From: a virus
Strand: one strand, 5' to 3'
DNA length: 34,265 bases
IMG/VR virus record: IMGVR_UViG_3300037961_004291
Location: 1 to 34,265 of that record
The notes beneath the pieces were generated by a model. That model was not told the origin of the DNA. It did not search any database and worked only from the letters and a program-made list of their open reading frames with translations. The position numbers and the translations under genes are program-made. This document shows, in pieces, positions 20,408 to 32,101 of the stretch. Numbering within the stretch: position 1 is the first letter of the stretch; every line of letters begins with the position of its first letter.

Positions 20408-20601
20408 AAGATCAATACGTTATTGATGATGGCGAAAATAAACAAGAGAAATGGAATCGTGGACTTGATATCTTTATTGAGTCTGTGCATAAACCAGACT
20501 CTGCACTTCGCCAATGTGCTCATAATCAAAAGTGTTATCACGAACTAATGGATGTTCGTAAGAATGTATTAGAATATCTCAACACATTGAGGTGGAATTG
20601 A
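20404..20601 (+). CDS. Small protein between gp43 and uvsX
   Basis: 65 residues starting in the gp43 stop (ATGA) and ending in the uvsX start (TGATG). Content: an acidic N-terminus, [12 protein letters not shown], a Cys pair in [14 protein letters not shown], and a C-terminal helix V-L-E-Y-L-N. Two Cys and two His in C-A-H-N-Q-K-C-Y-H could bind a metal. Translational coupling on both sides supports a real gene. Function unknown. Confidence 0.65.
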
Positions 20602-21338
20602 TGGATTTTTTAAAAGAGATTGTAAAAGAGATCGGTGACGACTATACACAACTAGCATCAGACATCGATGAAACAGAACAATATGTTGACACAGGTTCGT
20701 ACATTTTTAACGGACTTGTTTCAGGGTCTATATTTGGTGGTGTATCTGGGAATAAGATTACTGCCATTGCTGGCGAGTCTAGCACTGGAAAAACTTTTTT
20801 CTCCCTTGCTGTCGTCAAGAACTTCTTGGATTCTAATCCTGATGGGTATTGTCTATATTTTGACACTGAAGCCGCTATTAACAAGTCTCTTATCGCAAGT
20901 CGGGGGATTGACCTAGATCGACTGGTTGTTGTCAATGTTGTTACAATTGAAGAGTTTAGGTCCAAAGCACTAAAAGCGGTTGATATATATTTAAAAAAAC
21001 CTGAAGACGAACGCAAACCCTGTATGTTTGTGTTAGACTCTTTGGGGATGCTTTCCACAGAGAAAGAAATTACTGATGCACTGAACGACAAACAAGTTCG
21101 CGACATGACCAAATCCCAACTGGTCAAAGGTGCATTCAGAATGTTGACTCTGAAACTGGGACAAGCAAACATCCCTATGATCGTTACCAACCACACCTAC
21201 GATGTCATTGGCGCTTATGTACCTACAAAGGAAATGGGAGGAGGCAGTGGCCTCAAGTATGCAGCGAGTACAATCATCTATCTCAGCAAGAAAAAGGAGA
21301 AAGATGGAACAGAAGTCGTCGGTGGCAGGTCGTTATGA
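20601..21338 (+). pseudogene. uvsX: uvsX, N-terminal part of a disrupted recombinase gene
   Basis: 245 codons of a RecA/UvsX recombinase: Walker A G-E-S-S-T-G-K-T near residue 58, Walker B M-F-V-L-D-S-L-G, and loop 2 [14 protein letters not shown]. After D-G-T-E-V-V-G (about residue 241) the frame reaches a stop within a few codons. The expected strand block and K-S-R/G-L-D-x-Y-x-G-L-L region are missing. A normal UvsX C-terminus (G-R-Y-E...Y-F-T) resumes in another frame at about 21327. About 50 codons seem deleted, with a frameshift. The truncated protein lacks part of the ATPase core fold, so it is probably inactive, unless this is an assembly error. Confidence 0.85.
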
Positions 21339-21465
21339 GATAGATGGCAAGAAAGTTTATGCCAAAGCGATCTACAAAGACCCTGAACAATACTTCACTC
21401 CTGAGGTGATGGAGAAACTAGACGAGATTGCTAGGGAAGAGTTTAGTTATGGATCGTCTAGTTGA
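21304..21465 (+). pseudogene. uvsX: uvsX, C-terminal remnant in another frame
   Basis: From about 21325 this frame encodes [15 protein letters not shown], then Y-F-T-P-E-V-M-E-K-L, the usual C-terminal tail of cyanophage UvsX. An ATG at 21304 with AAGGAG upstream could in principle translate a 53-residue fragment. The overlap with the N-terminal ORF and the missing central block mark this as the other half of one broken gene. Confidence 0.75.
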
Positions 21466-24451: not shown

Positions 24452-25885
24452 ATGTCAAATAAATTCACCATAACTGACCAAAAAGTAAAATCCTGTCTAT
24501 TGGATGTAATGGCGTCAATGGCTGGTGAGAATTATAATTATTATCAGGATTATTCTGTTACAAAAGTATCAACTGGTGATAGATCTAAAATCAAAGTGGG
24601 ACTAAAGGTAGTTGTTCCTCAATCACAGAGAGTTACTGCTGCTACCCGAATAGGACAAAAACTGCAAGGTAAATATAATGTAGAGTATGCAAGAGATGAT
24701 ACTCAGTTAAATATTAGTGTTGGAAAAAAAGAACCATATTCAAAACAATTAATTCGTATTGATATAAAACCAATGGGTGGTGGATCTGGAGCTGGATCTG
24801 ATGCCACTGCTATCAATGAATCTGCACAATGTTTATATGCTGCACTTGCTTTTAATGTATATCACGCTCCAATTGAAGGAGATGGTGGATCAATATCTTT
24901 AGAGGACTTTGAAGAAGCTGCACAATCTTGTGAAGTAGATGTTAAGTTTGATGAGATGATTGCTCTTCCTACAAGTTGGAAACTTTCTTCGATTAGAGGT
25001 GCCAATGAATTATATAATCGTATTGGAAAATATAAACCAAAAGGGTATTATAAGTTCTATCGTGGGAAGGGACTTGATGATGGACAAATAAAGAGTGCCT
25101 ATCAAAAAATTAGAAAAGGAACACCATTTACTTCAGAAGATAAATGGAATCCTGCAGATATTTGGATCGCTGCATCAAACTTTAGTGCTAATGATATTAC
25201 TGATGCGGCATCATCTGGACTGGCGAAAAATATAAATCAATTTCTAATTGAGAAGTATGATTCGAGAGAATTGATTGGTGTATCACTTAAAAAAATTACT
25301 ACTCCCACCGCACATGTATCATTAAAAAATTATACTCAAGATGGAAAAGCGGCTGGAGTTCATTATGCTGGTTATGAATTGAGATATAAAACAGGAGATG
25401 AATACTCTATCGACGTTTATATAAAGTATGGTAACGGCGATGAAAAAATTCAGTTTAGAAATTTCGGGGGAAATAAAGCAGGATCTTGGCAAGGTGAGGT
25501 AAAGGGATCATCAGCAAATCAAGGAAAGATTGGGGGTGGAGAAGTTTTTAACATACTCAAGGCATTTAAAGCAATTTCAACAATTCCACAGAATCAGCAA
25601 GTATGGGCAGATTCTGGATCCAGTACAAAAATTAAAAAGATGTCGGAAGATCTATATGATGACTTAAAACAATACAATGCATCAGAACTTCCAAATAATA
25701 AAAAGGCTACAGTTGGACAAATATCGAACTTTAACAAAAGTTATCGGTATTCAAAAACACTTGGCATGATGTTAATTAAAGCTTTAGAAACGAATAAGAA
25801 CAATGCTGATGAAATTGTGAAAGATATATATCTTTATGCAAGTTCACAACATTTACTTTCTGGAGTTTATTTGAAAATGGAGTGA
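24452..25885 (+). CDS. Unknown protein with nuclease-like motifs
   Basis: 477 residues. Visible blocks: L-I-R-I-D-I-K-P-M-G-G-G-S-G-A-G (residues 100-115), then I-N-E-S-A-Q-C-L-Y-A-A-L (121-132), and K-W-N-P-A-D-I-W-I-A (231-240). The I-D-I-K and Gly-rich segment, the later Glu and the K-W-N-P-A-D-I-W block resemble arrangements in PD-(D/E)XK-type nucleases and related phage proteins, but I cannot prove the fold. The C-terminal half is not recognised. It precedes a ligase-fold and a cytidylyltransferase-like gene in a late block, so a packaged enzyme is possible. Confidence 0.6.
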   Translation: MSNKFTITDQKVKSCLLDVMASMAGENYNYYQDYSVTKVSTGDRSKIKVGLKVVVPQSQRVTAATRIGQKLQGKYNVEYARDDTQLNISVGKKEPYSKQLIRIDIKPMGGGSGAGSDATAINESAQCLYAALAFNVYHAPIEGDGGSISLEDFEEAAQSCEVDVKFDEMIALPTSWKLSSIRGANELYNRIGKYKPKGYYKFYRGKGLDDGQIKSAYQKIRKGTPFTSEDKWNPADIWIAASNFSANDITDAASSGLAKNINQFLIEKYDSRELIGVSLKKITTPTAHVSLKNYTQDGKAAGVHYAGYELRYKTGDEYSIDVYIKYGNGDEKIQFRNFGGNKAGSWQGEVKGSSANQGKIGGGEVFNILKAFKAISTIPQNQQVWADSGSSTKIKKMSEDLYDDLKQYNASELPNNKKATVGQISNFNKSYRYSKTLGMMLIKALETNKNNADEIVKDIYLYASSQHLLSGVYLKME

Positions 25886-25944: not shown

Positions 25945-27183
25945 ATGGCAAAGAACACACACCTTGAACACCTTGAGGATGACATCCTCAATAATGGATC
26001 CGATGGTGGCAAAAACGCCATTGCTTTTCTTCGGGAACTTGGAGACATGCTCCAAGGAAAACAATCTCAGGTTAGAATTACAACAAAGTGGGACGGTGCT
26101 CCTGCAGTAATTTGTGGAATAGATCCAATCACAGGATATTTTTTTGTTGGAACAAAGTCGGTTTTTGCGAAGACCGCTCCTAAAGTTATGTTTTCTGCAG
26201 AACAGATTGATGAAACTTATTCTGGACAACTCGCAGCAAAACTAAAAGCATGTCTACAATATCTTCCTAAACTTGGAATCAAAGGAGTTCTTCAGGGAGA
26301 TCTTTTGTTTACAGATGATAAGTCATCCGATACTATTGATGGAGAACGAATGATTACATTCACTCCTAATACTATTACATATGCGGTTCCCGCTGATTCT
26401 GATCTAGGATCAAAAATTAATTCAGCCGAAGTTGGCATTGTTTTTCATACTAAGTACACTGGTCAAAGTTTGCCTGAGATGAGTGCGTCTTTTGGTGTTG
26501 ATATATCGGACCTTAATGATAGTAATGATGTTTATGCAGCAACTGCCAGTTTTTCTGATGCTACTGGTGTAGCAAAATTTTCTCCTTCTGAGATACAGAA
26601 ATTTAAAAACCTTGTTAATATATCTGAGGGATCACTCAAGAAAGCTTCAAAATTTCTAAATATACTTGGAGAAACCGGTTCAGGAAAGTTTCTCTTGTCC
26701 ACCCTGTTCAAGCAGTTTTTCAATTCATACGTTCGACCAAATAAGACGACAGGAAAGATCAAACGTATGGGAACAACGCGAGCCGTAGTTGCAGATTTTG
26801 CTCGCTATTACAAAGAATTACTTGATAAAGAAATACAATCTAAAAAAACAACTGCTGCTCAGGATAAGTACAGGAAGATCCAGTCAGATGGTCTTAAATT
26901 TATTCAGGCAAATCAACAAAGTATTTACTTCACGGTTGCGTCGTACACTAATCTTACAAGATCTAAAGAATTTATTATCAGGAAATTGGAAAAAGTTAAA
27001 ACGCTTGGAACATTCCTTCGCACGGAAACTGGGTATAAAGTTACTGCGCCGGAGGGATTCGTTGCGATTGGGTCTGGTTCAGCACTCAAATTGGTTGATC
27101 GTCTTGAATTCTCCAGAGCCAATTTTACCGCCACAAAAGATTGGGACACTACCCCCCAAGGATATAAAGGCGTGACACCATAA
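25945..27183 (+). CDS. Ligase-type nucleotidyltransferase-like protein (DUF6267-like)
   Basis: 412 residues. Motif I of covalent nucleotidyltransferases: T-T-K-W-D-G-A-P-A (Lys48, K-x-D-G). Possible motif III G-V-L-Q-G-D-L-L-F (114-122) and motif IV A-E-V-G-I-V-F-H-T-K (161-170) follow with plausible spacing. The rest, with a long Lys/Thr-rich helical part (about 240-330), is not recognised. T4-like marine phages carry this as a conserved unknown; the label DUF6267 is from memory. It could be an RNA or DNA ligase relative or a degenerate one. A late promoter box overlaps its stop codon. Confidence 0.65.
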   Translation: MAKNTHLEHLEDDILNNGSDGGKNAIAFLRELGDMLQGKQSQVRITTKWDGAPAVICGIDPITGYFFVGTKSVFAKTAPKVMFSAEQIDETYSGQLAAKLKACLQYLPKLGIKGVLQGDLLFTDDKSSDTIDGERMITFTPNTITYAVPADSDLGSKINSAEVGIVFHTKYTGQSLPEMSASFGVDISDLNDSNDVYAATASFSDATGVAKFSPSEIQKFKNLVNISEGSLKKASKFLNILGETGSGKFLLSTLFKQFFNSYVRPNKTTGKIKRMGTTRAVVADFARYYKELLDKEIQSKKTTAAQDKYRKIQSDGLKFIQANQQSIYFTVASYTNLTRSKEFIIRKLEKVKTLGTFLRTETGYKVTAPEGFVAIGSGSALKLVDRLEFSRANFTATKDWDTTPQGYKGVTP

Positions 27184-27205: not shown

Positions 27206-28495
27206 ATGAAGACGTTATCAAATTTTTTGATGGAAGCTACAGAGTCTCGCGCAGTTATGCAAGCGCAGAGACTTGGATTTAAGAGCGATGGGCATGGCGG
27301 ATGGTATGATAAGAATGGGGAGTTTGTTGCTAAGACTGTAAAGGGGGAATTAAAGTTTTTTAATCAAAGACAGAAAGAAGGAGAACAAGACCCTAAACAA
27401 GTAAGAACACAAAATAATCAACAACCAGTGGCAACTCAGGCTAGTTCTTCTAGACAGGATGCGAGAACTGCGGCTGTTGGAGATTCGTCAGAGTCGGAAG
27501 ATACTGAAGACTTTGGAACGTTTCCTAATGGTGAACCTAGGAGAATGCCTGCTCCGACCAATGCTGATGGGTCTCCAAAAGAGGATCGTGGCAAGGTGAC
27601 TGTTGTTTTTGGTAGATTTAATCCACCTACAATTGGTCATCAAAAACTTTTGGATGCGGCAAGAAAAGCTTCTGGTGATGGAGATCTGAGAATCTATCCT
27701 TCGAGATCAAATGATCCTAAGAAAAATCCTCTTGACCCCGATAGTAAGATTGACGTGATGCGTCAAATGTATCCAGATCATGCTGCACATATTATTAACG
27801 ATCCAAACTCAAAAACAATTTTTGATGTTCTAAAAACTGCACATCAAGATGGATATTCTGGAGTTAACATTGTAGTTGGTGGTGACAGATTAAAAGAATT
27901 TGAAAAACTTTCTGGTTCTTATAATGGAAAAATTTATGATTTTGGTGAACTTGATGTAGTTTCTGCTGGAGAAAGGGATCCAGATGCTGAAGGTATTGAA
28001 GGAATGTCTGCATCAAAGATGCGTAAAGCCGCAGTAGACAACGATTTTAAAGCTTTTAGATCTGGTGTACCTAAATCTATTGATGATAAATCTGCAAAAC
28101 TAATTTTTAATAAACTTAAAAAGTCCATGAACTTGGTTAATAGTTCATTTGACTTATGGCAGATTGCACCCAAGTTTGATTGGATTAATCTTAGAGAAAA
28201 TTATGTTTCCAATCAAATTTTTAAAGTTGGGGATATTGTTGAAAATTTAAATACTGGATTAATTGGTGAAATTATTCGTAGAGGTACAAATTATTTGATT
28301 TGTGTTACCGAAGATAATGTAATGTTTAAATCCTGGATCAAGGATGTAATGGAAAAGGTTGTAAATTATTCGGGGCCATCTGGAGTTCCTGCAAATCAAA
28401 GAGAAATCGGAACAGATTCTAACAGAGAGTATGCTATGAAACTCACAGGAACAAAATACATCAAAAATTTTATATCCAAATATAAGAAGAAATAA
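27206..28495 (+). CDS. Cytidylyltransferase-like protein with capsid-targeting N-terminus
   Basis: 429 residues. The N-terminus M-K-T-L-S-N-F-L-M-E-A closely resembles the T4 internal-protein targeting peptide M-K-T-Y-Q-E-F-I-A-E-A, cut by prohead protease gp21 after (I/L)-x-E, here L-M-E at residue 10. Next come K-S-D-G-H-G-G-W-Y-D (27-36) and a disordered linker. Residues about 130-290 form a nucleotidyltransferase of the HIGH superfamily: G-R-F-N-P-P-T-I-G-H (136-145), V-V-G-G-D-R and S-A-S-K-M-R (268-273, like the I-S-S-T-x-x-R motif). The C-terminal 120 residues include an SH3-like segment (V-G-D-I-V-E-N-L-N-T-G-L-I-G-E). Substrate unknown. Confidence 0.78.
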   Translation: MKTLSNFLMEATESRAVMQAQRLGFKSDGHGGWYDKNGEFVAKTVKGELKFFNQRQKEGEQDPKQVRTQNNQQPVATQASSSRQDARTAAVGDSSESEDTEDFGTFPNGEPRRMPAPTNADGSPKEDRGKVTVVFGRFNPPTIGHQKLLDAARKASGDGDLRIYPSRSNDPKKNPLDPDSKIDVMRQMYPDHAAHIINDPNSKTIFDVLKTAHQDGYSGVNIVVGGDRLKEFEKLSGSYNGKIYDFGELDVVSAGERDPDAEGIEGMSASKMRKAAVDNDFKAFRSGVPKSIDDKSAKLIFNKLKKSMNLVNSSFDLWQIAPKFDWINLRENYVSNQIFKVGDIVENLNTGLIGEIIRRGTNYLICVTEDNVMFKSWIKDVMEKVVNYSGPSGVPANQREIGTDSNREYAMKLTGTKYIKNFISKYKKK

Positions 28496-28540: not shown

Positions 28541-30544
28541 ATGAGTATGTCGGATCTTAACGACCTCTCTAAGATTTATCATCAAGAGGTTTTTACGCCA
28601 CAACTTGGCAATAAAAAACCTGCTGGGGGTGGAGCCAAGACTGTAGAAAAAGGAAAGAGTGATAGTGAGTCCTCTGCAAAGAGAATTCGTCAGGCGACAT
28701 ATGATATTAGATATCGTTCTCGCAGAGAAGATGTTCCTGCTGACAAAGCTTTTAATCAGTACATGTCAAACACGACTATGACTGCTCCTGAGAAAAAAGC
28801 AGTCAAGGATAAACTTAATATGAGTTATGAACCAGAAGGTGATGGTCTTGAGGAAGAGAGAGATAATGCTGGTAAGTATAAAGTTCGTGTAAAAGATAAG
28901 ACATCTGGTAAATCATATGTTCGTTACGCTAGTCGCGAAAAAATTAATCAATTACGTTCTAATCCAAACATTTCTTCTGTTGAGATGACAGGATATGGTG
29001 AACCGTATGAAGGTTCAAGAAAGAAGAAGTCTGAAAAACTTGATCCTGTGGGTAAGGAAGATGGTGATGTCAACAATGATGGTAAGAAGGACGGTACTGA
29101 TAAGTATCTAATGAATCGTCGTAAGGCAATCGGCAAAGCAATTAATACAAGAAAAGAAGAAACTGAAGTTCCTTCGGGGGACTTAAAAAAATTAGTCAAG
29201 AAAGCGGTTAAGAGAATCGATACAGATGTTGATGGTGATGTAGATCATAACGATCCTAAGGCAGGTCCCATGGGAGAGTTTGTTCCAAGTCCAGATGGTA
29301 AAAAACGAGTTTATTCAAAAGTAGTTTCAAAGGAAGAAACTCATAATTGGAGAGAGGGACTTATTCTTGAAATTGATGATGAGGATCAAGAAAAAGAAAT
29401 TAAAGAAAAGAAAATAAAAAATAAGGTTGTTATCAACCCAGACATGAAGAATGAGGAAATTCAGTCTGCCACTGAATCTTTCGCTGAGTCTGTTGGTGCT
29501 GATATTGAACTCGACGAAATTGATGAAGCTCAGTTAAGTCCTGAAGAACAAAAACAACTTTCTGCTAAAAAAAGAATGATGCAGAAAAAAATGATGCTTC
29601 AAAAACAAGTTATGCAACAACAGAAACAAGGAAAAATTCCTTTAAATTATTCAGAAGAAAATCAGAGTGATGATGACTTTGATATTGATGTGATTGATGA
29701 AATGTTCTTTGAAACTCTTGAAGAGGGTTATGATATTGATGAAGCCGCAGAGATCGTTCAAAAATCATGTGAAATGATTTTGGATGAAGATTATTATGAT
29801 TCTGCGGTCAAGTCATCTAAGTCTGCTGCTCGCAAGATCAATCTTCAAAAAAGAAAAACTGTTTCTGATAGATTAAGTTCTTTGAAACAGAAAGTGAAAT
29901 CCGGTGCTAAAAAAGCCATTACTGGTGCTAGTCGCACCGCCGGAAAAGTGATGAAAACAAAAGCGGCAATTCAATCGGCTCCCGCTAGAGCAAAAGCAAA
30001 AGCATCATCAGTTATTGATCGTGTTAAGAAAGTTGCCAAATCTGGATATGAGTCTGGTAGAGGGCCTGTTGAAAAAAAGTCTAGAAGCACTTCGTACAGA
30101 GGTGCAGGTGTAGGAAGAAAAGAAAAGATCGGGGAAGAAGTGGTTGATGAAAAACTCAACATGAAAAAAGAAAAGATGGGTGATGTTATCACTGATTTTT
30201 ATAAATCTGATGCTCCTCAATTTAAAGGCAAATCAAAAGAAAAACGTCGTGAAATGGCAATCGCTGCCAAGTTGACTGCTGAAAGAGGTGAGAAAAAACT
30301 TGGTGAAGAGGCATCTGACGCAATGAAAGATCGTCGCATGGAACGTGGTGGTGTCGGTGGAAATCAACGATATGATAAAGCACCCAAATCACCTAATACT
30401 AAAAAGTTTGGTTCTGGTAAGACTGCCTTACAGAAAGATATGGAGAAGAAACATGGTAAAGGTGCTTCTGCCATGGATATCGTGAAGTCAGAGATCCGTG
30501 CCAAGCATGGTAAAGGTGCTATTATGGATACCAAGAAAAAGTGA
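28541..30544 (+). CDS. Large Lys/Asp-rich late protein, possible internal virion protein
   Basis: 667 residues, low-complexity and highly charged. Two dockerin/EF-hand-like calcium loops: D-G-D-V-N-N-D-G-K-K-D-G-T-D (174-187) and D-T-D-V-D-G-D-V-D-H-N-D (227-238). Residues about 330-360 are a Met/Gln/Lys helix. An Ala/Lys-rich histone-H1-like stretch follows at about 420-515 (G-A-K-K-A, A-K-A-K-A-S), and a basic C-terminus repeats K-H-G-K-G-A. Similar proteins are listed as structural in cyanophages. The basic region suggests DNA packing inside the head, and many (I/L)-x-E sites could be gp21 targets. Start could also be ATG 28547. Confidence 0.7.
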   Translation: MSMSDLNDLSKIYHQEVFTPQLGNKKPAGGGAKTVEKGKSDSESSAKRIRQATYDIRYRSRREDVPADKAFNQYMSNTTMTAPEKKAVKDKLNMSYEPEGDGLEEERDNAGKYKVRVKDKTSGKSYVRYASREKINQLRSNPNISSVEMTGYGEPYEGSRKKKSEKLDPVGKEDGDVNNDGKKDGTDKYLMNRRKAIGKAINTRKEETEVPSGDLKKLVKKAVKRIDTDVDGDVDHNDPKAGPMGEFVPSPDGKKRVYSKVVSKEETHNWREGLILEIDDEDQEKEIKEKKIKNKVVINPDMKNEEIQSATESFAESVGADIELDEIDEAQLSPEEQKQLSAKKRMMQKKMMLQKQVMQQQKQGKIPLNYSEENQSDDDFDIDVIDEMFFETLEEGYDIDEAAEIVQKSCEMILDEDYYDSAVKSSKSAARKINLQKRKTVSDRLSSLKQKVKSGAKKAITGASRTAGKVMKTKAAIQSAPARAKAKASSVIDRVKKVAKSGYESGRGPVEKKSRSTSYRGAGVGRKEKIGEEVVDEKLNMKKEKMGDVITDFYKSDAPQFKGKSKEKRREMAIAAKLTAERGEKKLGEEASDAMKDRRMERGGVGGNQRYDKAPKSPNTKKFGSGKTALQKDMEKKHGKGASAMDIVKSEIRAKHGKGAIMDTKKK

Positions 30545-30854: not shown

Positions 30855-31409
30855 ATGGCTCTTTGGGGCAATAACGATAATCGCGATGCACAGGGCACAG
30901 TTACTTTAAATTATGCCACAGGCATTGTAACTGGTTCTAATTTAGAAGATCCCGGTAATGGAACCTTATTTGGTGAGGCTGGTTCTATTCAGGAAGGCGA
31001 TGTCATTAGATTTGGCGTCATGGAGAAGCCTGGCACGTACATGGGTGATGCTGTAGTTGTTAGTATTGCCAGCACAACTCAGCTTACTATTGGATCAACT
31101 GCGGGACTTAGTGGTGTTGCTATTGCTGCCACTACCTTCCAAGGTTCACAACTTCCCAAATATACAATCAAAGACTCTCATTATAGCGAAACTCAGTCTG
31201 GATATTCTGCTAATGTCTATGGCATTTCAACTGCAGGAGCACAAGACGCAAATGGCGCTACTTATGAAGTAGGTGTTGGTTGGGTTGGTGTTACAACTTA
31301 TATTGATACTCATGGTAACCTGAGAGTTAAGAAAGAGATTCTTGTTGCTATGTCTGGTATCGAGACAGGTAACACTCCTTCTTATCCTAATATTGAAGAT
31401 GCTGTATGA
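30855..31409 (+). CDS. Probable virion structural protein
   Basis: 184 residues, Gly/Thr/Ala-rich and beta-strand-prone, with few charged residues. It opens M-A-L-W-G-N-N-D-N-R-D and has repeated strand pairs (G-T-V-T-L-N-Y-A-T-G-I-V-T-G, T-Q-L-T-I-G-S-T-A-G-L-S-G-V). The M-A-L-W-G-N-N-D start is a pattern I know from T4-like cyanophage virion proteins. A perfect late promoter and a good ribosome-binding region fit high late expression. The exact place in the virion is unknown. Confidence 0.72.
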   Translation: MALWGNNDNRDAQGTVTLNYATGIVTGSNLEDPGNGTLFGEAGSIQEGDVIRFGVMEKPGTYMGDAVVVSIASTTQLTIGSTAGLSGVAIAATTFQGSQLPKYTIKDSHYSETQSGYSANVYGISTAGAQDANGATYEVGVGWVGVTTYIDTHGNLRVKKEILVAMSGIETGNTPSYPNIEDAV

Positions 31410-31419
31410 TAACTGAGGA

Positions 31420-31812
31420 ATGAGATTTGAAGATTTAAATAAAGATAATTTTTTATTATTTGCAATCCGCAATTATGATAATCCCCATGCAGTTACTAAA
31501 GACGACTTTGTACGAGATCTAAATCATTTTAAATACCTTAAACGGTTATTGAGAAAATATCATCTGACTGGGGAACTCAAGTCTCATTTACTTATAAACC
31601 ATTTTATTGTTTTATATAATATTTTTGGAGATGCTGCTACTCCAATGTTGTTCTATAAAATTGAACAGGAACTTTGGGGTATAATGAAATCATTTTTGAT
31701 TTTCTTAAATAAATTTCCTGATTATCCCAAAACTAGTATCCATGATATAAAAGTGGATATGGAATGTTTCAAATCCTTACAAGAGGAATACAATGGAAAG
31801 AGAAAAAATTGA
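31420..31812 (+). CDS. Conserved hypothetical protein
   Basis: 130 residues, helical, rich in Phe, Tyr, Lys and Leu. F-L-L-F-A-I-R-N-Y-D-N-P-H (residues 11-23), L-K-R-L-L-R-K-Y, L-L-I-N-H-F-I-V-L-Y-N-I-F-G-D-A-A-T-P-M-L-F-Y-K-I (about 57-80). Recognisable as a conserved protein of T4-like cyanophages but with no known role. It starts 10 nt after the structural gene and overlaps the next gene by 20 nt. Confidence 0.7.
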   Translation: MRFEDLNKDNFLLFAIRNYDNPHAVTKDDFVRDLNHFKYLKRLLRKYHLTGELKSHLLINHFIVLYNIFGDAATPMLFYKIEQELWGIMKSFLIFLNKFPDYPKTSIHDIKVDMECFKSLQEEYNGKRKN

Positions 31813-32101
31813 TAGGATAATTGATGCGTTTAGATCTTCAATGTACCGTGAATTTGGTGTAAATGAAGAGGGAATGGTTGCTAATCCTCCCGGTAAATCT
31901 GGAGGATTTAGTCAATCTTCGGATCCAAAAGGACCCACTGCAGGTTATGATAAACCTATGAAACTTGACGGAAGAAGAAAGTATGTTAAAAAATATATTG
32001 ATGACTTAATGAAGAATAGAAAAAAACGAGAAGATAAGAAGTTAAAGAAAAAAGTACAGGACTTTAATCCTTATTTTACGAAGAGCAATGGAATGTTCTG
32101 A
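31793..32101 (+). CDS. Basic hypothetical protein
   Basis: 102 residues. Helix E-K-I-D-R-I-I-D-A-F-R-S-S-M-Y-R-E-F (residues 4-21), a Gly/Pro/Ser linker with P-P-G-K-S-G-G-F-S and G-P-T-A-G-Y-D-K-P, then a very basic C-terminus (R-R-K-Y-V-K-K-Y, K-N-R-K-K-R-E-D-K-K-L-K-K-K) and F-N-P-Y-F. The basic tail may bind nucleic acid. Function unknown. It overlaps both neighbours by 14-20 nt. Confidence 0.68.
   Translation: MEREKIDRIIDAFRSSMYREFGVNEEGMVANPPGKSGGFSQSSDPKGPTAGYDKPMKLDGRRKYVKKYIDDLMKNRKKREDKKLKKKVQDFNPYFTKSNGMF

Follow-up and report, generated by a model that had tools for sequence, protein, structure and literature searches.

The window, i.e. the whole stretch of DNA analysed, is a virus record of 34 kb (34,265 nt) whose best protein matches lie among T4-like cyanophages; it is probably a fragment of a virus genome. 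A gene at positions 27206–28495 encodes a protein of 429 amino acids and is flanked by a DUF6267 gene (25945–27183) and by a Lys/Arg-rich gene (28541–30544). The features of this region are as follows:

24452..25885, + strand: upstream gene, homologue of S-SCSM1_90, flagged as a virion protein by mass spectrometry (BLASTP E 9e-35; record flag)
25945..27183, + strand: upstream DUF6267 gene, ligase-like, without the leader (Pfam DUF6267 E 4e-129)
27206..28495, + strand: leader-bearing nucleotidylyltransferase gene, 429 aa (PHROG 395, T4-GC190 family; S-SM1 orthologue annotated T4-LIKE GC 190)
27206..27235, + strand: capsid-targeting-type leader MKTLSNFLME, residues 1–10 (conservation; T4 IPIII positions 4, 7, 8, 10)
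27233..27238, + strand: predicted prohead-protease cut E10/A11, L-M-E/A (L/I-x-E rule; capsid-protein sites of the same type)
27236..27364, + strand: module, residues 11–53, consensus AvqqAkrlgLkgdGhGgwyDknGefvaktekGkLkf (HMM, BLASTP, reciprocal tblastn)
27365..27589, + strand: low-complexity linker, residues 54–128 (pLDDT mostly <60)
27590..28138, + strand: HIGH-superfamily nucleotidylyltransferase domain, residues 129–311 (fold comparison, invariant motif residues)
27611..27640, + strand: GRFNPPTIGH, residues 136–145, (H/T)xGH ATP-binding motif (conservation)
28007..28024, + strand: SASKMR, residues 268–273, second motif, of the SxSxxR/K type (conservation)
28223..28354, + strand: small C-terminal beta module, residues 340–383 (PHROG 4808 match; stand-alone versions elsewhere)
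28541..30544, + strand: downstream Lys/Arg-rich gene, homologue of virion protein S-SCSM1_92 (BLASTP E 4e-15; record flag)
30855..31409, + strand: homologue of virion protein S-SCSM1_95, called tail fiber protein (63% identity, E 2e-71; record flag)

A profile search matched the 429-aa product to PHROG 395, 'cytidyltransferase' (E 1.3e-108, residues 123–425), and Pfam CTP_transf_like scored above its gathering threshold. The protein S-SCSM1_91 of Synechococcus phage S-SCSM1 is a near isolate homologue (55% identity, full length). An earlier, sequence-only reading of this gene had recognised a nucleotidyltransferase from the motifs GRFNPPTIGH and SASKMR and had suggested structure prediction of residues 130–290. 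The translation places these motifs at residues 136–145 and 268–273, and the AlphaFold2 model has a confident domain at residues 129–311, which bears out the assignment. The domain belongs to the HIGH superfamily, since it combines a Rossmann-like fold with both the (H/T)xGH and the SxSxxR/K motifs. Residues G136, R137, F138, N139, P140, P141, G144 and H145 of the first motif, and S268, A269, S270 and R273 of the second, are invariant in the homologues, so the protein is likely, judging from its sequence, to be enzymatically active. Fold comparison of residues 129–311 with VIA-align ranked the PPAT structure 3pxu at the top (Z 14.0), with NadD 5vir at 12.7 and NadD/NadM chains at 12.3–12.7; sequence identity to these best solved structures was 11–18%. 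The C-terminal module also occurs as separate genes in S-PM2, S-WAM2 and P-HM1. Stand-alone copies (L178 4549–4803, L180 3567–4874, L185 4515–4790) are annotated as 'ribonucleotide reductase alpha subunit' or 'possible cytitidyltransferase', names that look wrong.

The translation begins MKTLSNFLMEA, and its proposed match to the T4 internal-protein leader at most key positions held up on comparison with the T4 record. The products of ipII and ipIII both begin MKTYQEFIAEA; the window leader is identical to them at six of 11 positions (M1, K2, T3, F7, E10, A11) and similar at positions 4 (L/Y) and 8 (L/I). In T4 IPIII, 10 residues suffice for packaging, and mutagenesis assigned a role in targeting to positions 4 and 7, and one in processing to 8 and 10 (PMC9026906). 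The window protein thus has the attributes of a capsid-targeting sequence: a leader of ∼10 residues at the extreme N-terminus, with the targeting positions 4 and 7 and the processing positions 8 and 10. All of the 80 homologues found in viral contigs start with MKxFxxFxxE or a near variant. Across 34 non-redundant homologues, M1, K2, F7 and E10 were invariant; position 4 was F in 33 (it is L in the window protein); position 8 was L in 26, I in four and F, which falls outside the L/I rule, in four; and residues 3, 5, 6, 9 and 11–13 were variable. Since positions 4, 7, 8 and 10 are kept in these homologues, the conserved leader positions are those that the T4 experiments predict. Close homologues without the leader, named beforehand as evidence against packaging, were not seen down to ∼52% identity. 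Distant homologues of the domain in S-PM2, P-HM1 and S-WAM2 lack the leader (in S-PM2 the domain sits behind DUF6267), and packaging therefore does not extend to the family as a whole.

A scan of the window's proteins for the same leader, suggested by the sequence-only reading, found a single carrier: the leader pattern matched once in the whole window, on the 27206–28495 gene. In shuffled versions of the window's proteins the permissive pattern gave ∼0.0004 matches per position (∼0.02 expected in ∼43 genes) and the strict pattern ∼3e-7. A literature search on capsid-targeting sequences and cyanophages turned up no paper, within the literature searched, that reports the leader in such phages.

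The T4 prohead protease gp21 cuts after L/I-x-E (PMC9026906), and a site of this type had been pointed out in the leader. It lies at L8-M9-E10 and is well conserved, with E10 in 34/34 homologues and L or I at position 8 in 30/34. The capsid proteins carry comparable sequences near their N-termini: SFLTEA in T4 gp23, SFLAEA in S-SCSM1, GLLTEA in S-CREM2 and GILTEA in S-SZBM1. The three cyanophage sequences are presumably actual cut sites. Together with the leader site they would fit a common protease specificity, and cleavage of the leader is predicted between E10 and A11. The consistent protease site is a new observation.

Orthologues of the window protein have been found in virions by mass spectrometry. 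The putative citidylyltransferase T4-GC190 was among the proteins of the S-SM1 virion (PMC3037559), and S-SCSM1 ORF91 (PMC9602691), SSZBM1_140 (two peptides; PMC9146016) and S-CREM2 gp154 (three peptides; PMC10665884) were detected in the virions of their phages. SSM1_190, which carries the cluster number T4-GC190, starts MKKFSAFLNEA; the N-termini of ORF91 and gp154 are MKSFLQFLKEA and MKNFSSFLTEA, and that of SSZBM1_140, one residue shorter, is MRFRQFIIEA. The idea of an enzyme packed in the head is thus supported by published data on leader-bearing orthologues in four phages other than that of the window. Virion presence of the T4-GC190 family is therefore already published; in their available text, these four papers mention no leader and describe neither the protease site nor the shared module. 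T4-GC190 is also encoded by S-PM2 but, according to Sullivan et al. (PMC3037559), was undetected in its virions. The leaderless S-PM2 copy and this non-detection agree with the leader rule, without proving it.

A genome-wide leader scan of S-CREM2 gave six matches: gp6 (SAM lyase), gp13, gp14 (kinase), gp136, gp154 and gp175. Five of these are in the mass spectrometry list, the exception being gp175, of 55 residues (P 0.003 by the hypergeometric distribution, 52 of the 219 genes being represented in virions; the pattern was chosen after the S-CREM2 virion N-termini had been seen, which makes this value partly post hoc). With only K accepted at position 2, all four matches (gp6, gp13, gp14 and gp154) were detected. 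In S-CREM2 the presence of the leader is thus suggestive, and only suggestive, of presence in the virion; this tie is new here. The annotated matches in S-SCSM1 were ORF91, found in virions, and the 106-residue ORF30 (S-SCSM1_30), undetected by mass spectrometry. In the 66 kb of S-SZBM1 scanned, SSZBM1_191 and SSZBM1_192 matched the pattern and both are absent from the mass spectrometry list. The same scan of T4 found IPII, IPIII and 61.1, and missed IPI and Alt. A wider pattern with shifted spacing produced more chance matches and was kept out of the statistics. A DNA form of the pattern matched 14 times in 12 viral records (reversed control, 0); besides the nucleotidylyltransferase, the matches comprised a conserved family of 102–105 residues and small proteins. 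This family (MKSFNQFLSE...; marine contigs L193 and L196, at 1501) resembles S-SCSM1_30 and SSZBM1_191, and was not seen in the virion mass spectrometry lists. The product of T4 gene 61.1 (L093 18966–19130), a 54-residue protein annotated as hypothetical, has a full leader of the capsid-targeting type, MKTFKEFIKED.

Residues 11–53, immediately behind the leader, are also conserved, and were modelled as a helix plus strands (pLDDT ∼89). A profile of these N-termini, run with filters off against the ORFs of the phages analysed and of the window, matched the S-CREM2 kinase gp14 in two copies (3e-8 each) and S-CREM2 gp12 (2e-9); BLASTP with the window protein alone gave E 1e-8 and 8e-7, respectively. 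Reverse searches from gp14 and gp12 recovered the N-termini of the NMNAT-like proteins, proteins of PHROG 3561, and the kinases of S-CRM01, S-H34, S-N03 and others. S-CREM2 gp6, gp13, gp136 and gp154 have the leader and no significant module match, and in gp12 the leader-like sequence is internal. A Pfam search of gp12 gave no match; it is called HNH-like here only on the strength of its Cas9-like annotation and its sequence. A module of ∼40 residues common to a nucleotidylyltransferase and to two virion proteins, one a kinase and the other HNH/Cas9-like, is new here, and the leader plus this module is proposed to be a cargo tag of cyanophages. The PHROG 3561 proteins, of 870–980 aa, carry the module behind a leader-like stretch (gp12, L082 7704–10313; L184 1570–4512); one of them is annotated as Cas9-like and was found in virions. 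In S-CRM01, the adjacent genes 127–131 all have leader-like N-termini, that of 128 by way of an internal GTG start, and possibly form a cargo operon. They encode (L181 2348–6926) a cytidyltransferase, a module protein, two small proteins and a kinase.

These observations make it quite probable that the nucleotidylyltransferase is phage-head cargo, targeted by a T4-type leader, cut, and injected with the DNA. Residues 1–10, acting as a T4-type capsid-targeting sequence, would bring the enzyme into the scaffold core of the prohead. A gp21-type protease of the phage would then cut L-M-E/A; the enzyme, now lying among the packaged DNA, would begin with Ala11 and would keep the module (residues 11–53) after the cut as a second shared cargo part. 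It would enter the host together with the phage DNA and there attach a nucleotide to a small molecule or to RNA, an activity that would thus be present before phage gene expression. For the window phage we infer the targeting by the leader, the injection and the role of the module. Several points speak against packaging: S-SCSM1_30, SSZBM1_191 and SSZBM1_192 went undetected, S-PM2, P-HM1 and S-WAM2 are leaderless, and position 8 is F in 4/34 homologues.

Carry-over could give the same mass spectrometry result: an abundant late cytoplasmic enzyme might stick to virions, its N-terminus being conserved for some other purpose, e.g. binding of a host or phage partner. Carry-over is discussed in the S-SCSM1 and S-CREM2 papers themselves, which point out that non-virion proteins present in large amounts may persist through CsCl purification (PMC9602691, PMC10665884). 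The RegA repressor, too, bears a virion-protein flag in the S-SCSM1 record, and the peptides reported are few (three for gp154 and two for SSZBM1_140). However, the protein was detected repeatedly, in at least four phages and in separate studies. Its leader agrees with the T4 targeting code at the positions concerned, and these are found again on other non-structural virion proteins of S-CREM2; carry-over is considered unlikely. It appears slightly less likely still that packaging depends on the 40-residue module, or on affinity for DNA or head proteins, with the leader serving only as a protease site or being a relic. The module is indeed common to the kinase, HNH-like and NMNAT-like virion proteins, it is duplicated in gp14, and the leader-like sequence of gp12 is internal; yet gp6, gp13, gp136 and gp154, all of them virion proteins, have the leader and no significant module match, and in T4 the 10-residue leader of IPIII is sufficient by itself (PMC9026906).

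What the enzyme might do after delivery is a separate matter. Both PPAT and NadD/NMNAT folds fit the modelled enzyme domain, and Pfam, NCBIfam, the PDB sequence search and the fold comparison leave PPAT, NadD and NadM too close to be separated as guides to the substrate. The PDB search with the family profile found only a weak local likeness of the SASKMR stretch to UPF0348 MJ0951, which was set aside. NMN/NAD is a plausible candidate substrate. A role in coenzyme synthesis, making NAD out of NMN, is compatible with packaging and would either work against defences that deplete NAD or increase the NAD available for the infection; it is a tentative suggestion, with somewhat less than an even chance of being right. 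Phages have been described as countering NADase defences by NAD synthesis (PMC9503650), the domain resembles NadD/NadM in fold (Z 12.3–12.7), and there are weak NCBIfam matches to NadD/NadR. These must be set against the first rank of the PPAT (CoaD) chains (Z 14.0), against scores far under the cut-offs of the NCBIfam NMN adenylyltransferase equivalogs (TIGR00482, 16.7 bits versus 112; TIGR01526, 13.8 versus 341), and against the adjoining ligase-like DUF6267 partner, which suggests RNA or DNA end chemistry.

The closest known counterparts of the proposed head cargo include proteins of T4. IPI, IPII and IPIII are otherwise unrelated proteins behind one leader, and are internal head proteins injected with the DNA; the window protein shares with IPII and IPIII the N-terminal MKxxxxFxxE(A) leader and the L/I-x-E protease site (PMC9026906, PMC3012670, PMC12373910). 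Unlike the T4 internal proteins, which are small restriction inhibitors, the proposed cargo here is a HIGH-superfamily enzyme with a conserved 40-residue module after the leader. The T4 ADP-ribosyltransferase Alt is a head-packaged enzyme that gp21 processes and that is injected, but its leader, MELITELFDED, lies outside the pattern, and its fold and chemistry differ. The window protein is a member of the orthologous family formed by the NMNAT-like or cytidylyltransferase proteins of cyanophage virions, T4-GC190 (PMC3037559, PMC9602691, PMC9146016, PMC10665884). It shares its leader with S-CREM2 gp6 (SAM lyase), gp13 and gp14 (kinase), and its module with gp14 and gp12 (HNH/Cas9-like), although the catalytic domains are unrelated. 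We give an even chance to a broader reading, in which T4-superfamily cyanophages use a general cargo address, the leader, often followed by the 40-residue GDGHG-W-D module, to load into the head unrelated enzymes that reach the host ahead of the expression of any phage gene; these would include the NMNAT-like nucleotidylyltransferase, Ser/Thr kinases, the HNH/Cas9-like protein and the SAM lyase. The authors of the cyanophage proteomes were unable to tell virion enzymes that are cargo from carry-over; given a leader that can be recognised and a cut site that can be predicted, a search of existing data for the relevant peptides would answer this with yes or no. The leader also provides a sequence rule for listing injected proteins in marine phage genomes and metagenomes, of which there are hundreds. 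It suggests, too, that infection of the most abundant photosynthetic bacteria may be opened by delivered enzymes, not by early-expressed genes.

The fusion of the two domains in S-PM2 (S-PM2d138) links DUF6267 functionally with the nucleotidylyltransferase. DUF6267 may be an unrecognised nucleic-acid ligase. It has an invariant K48-W-D-G, resembling ligase motif I, as well as QGDLL, EGFVAI and KLxDR stretches, and its fold comparison gave weak matches to RNA and DNA ligases, with T4 Rnl2 at Z 6.1 and Trl1 at 5.6, among unrelated structures. Co-packaging of DUF6267 with the enzyme was considered and rejected: it has no leader, and SSZBM1_141 is absent from the S-SZBM1 mass spectrometry list. 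The product of 28541–30544 (667 aa) contains low-complexity basic stretches and is possibly a DNA-associated head protein. The product of 31793–32101 weakly matches the S-SCSM1 virion-flagged protein 97. Elsewhere in the window (20592–21465), a UvsX-like recombinase seems to be split between two frames (20592–21338 and 21202–21465), which would reflect a frameshift or a sequencing error.
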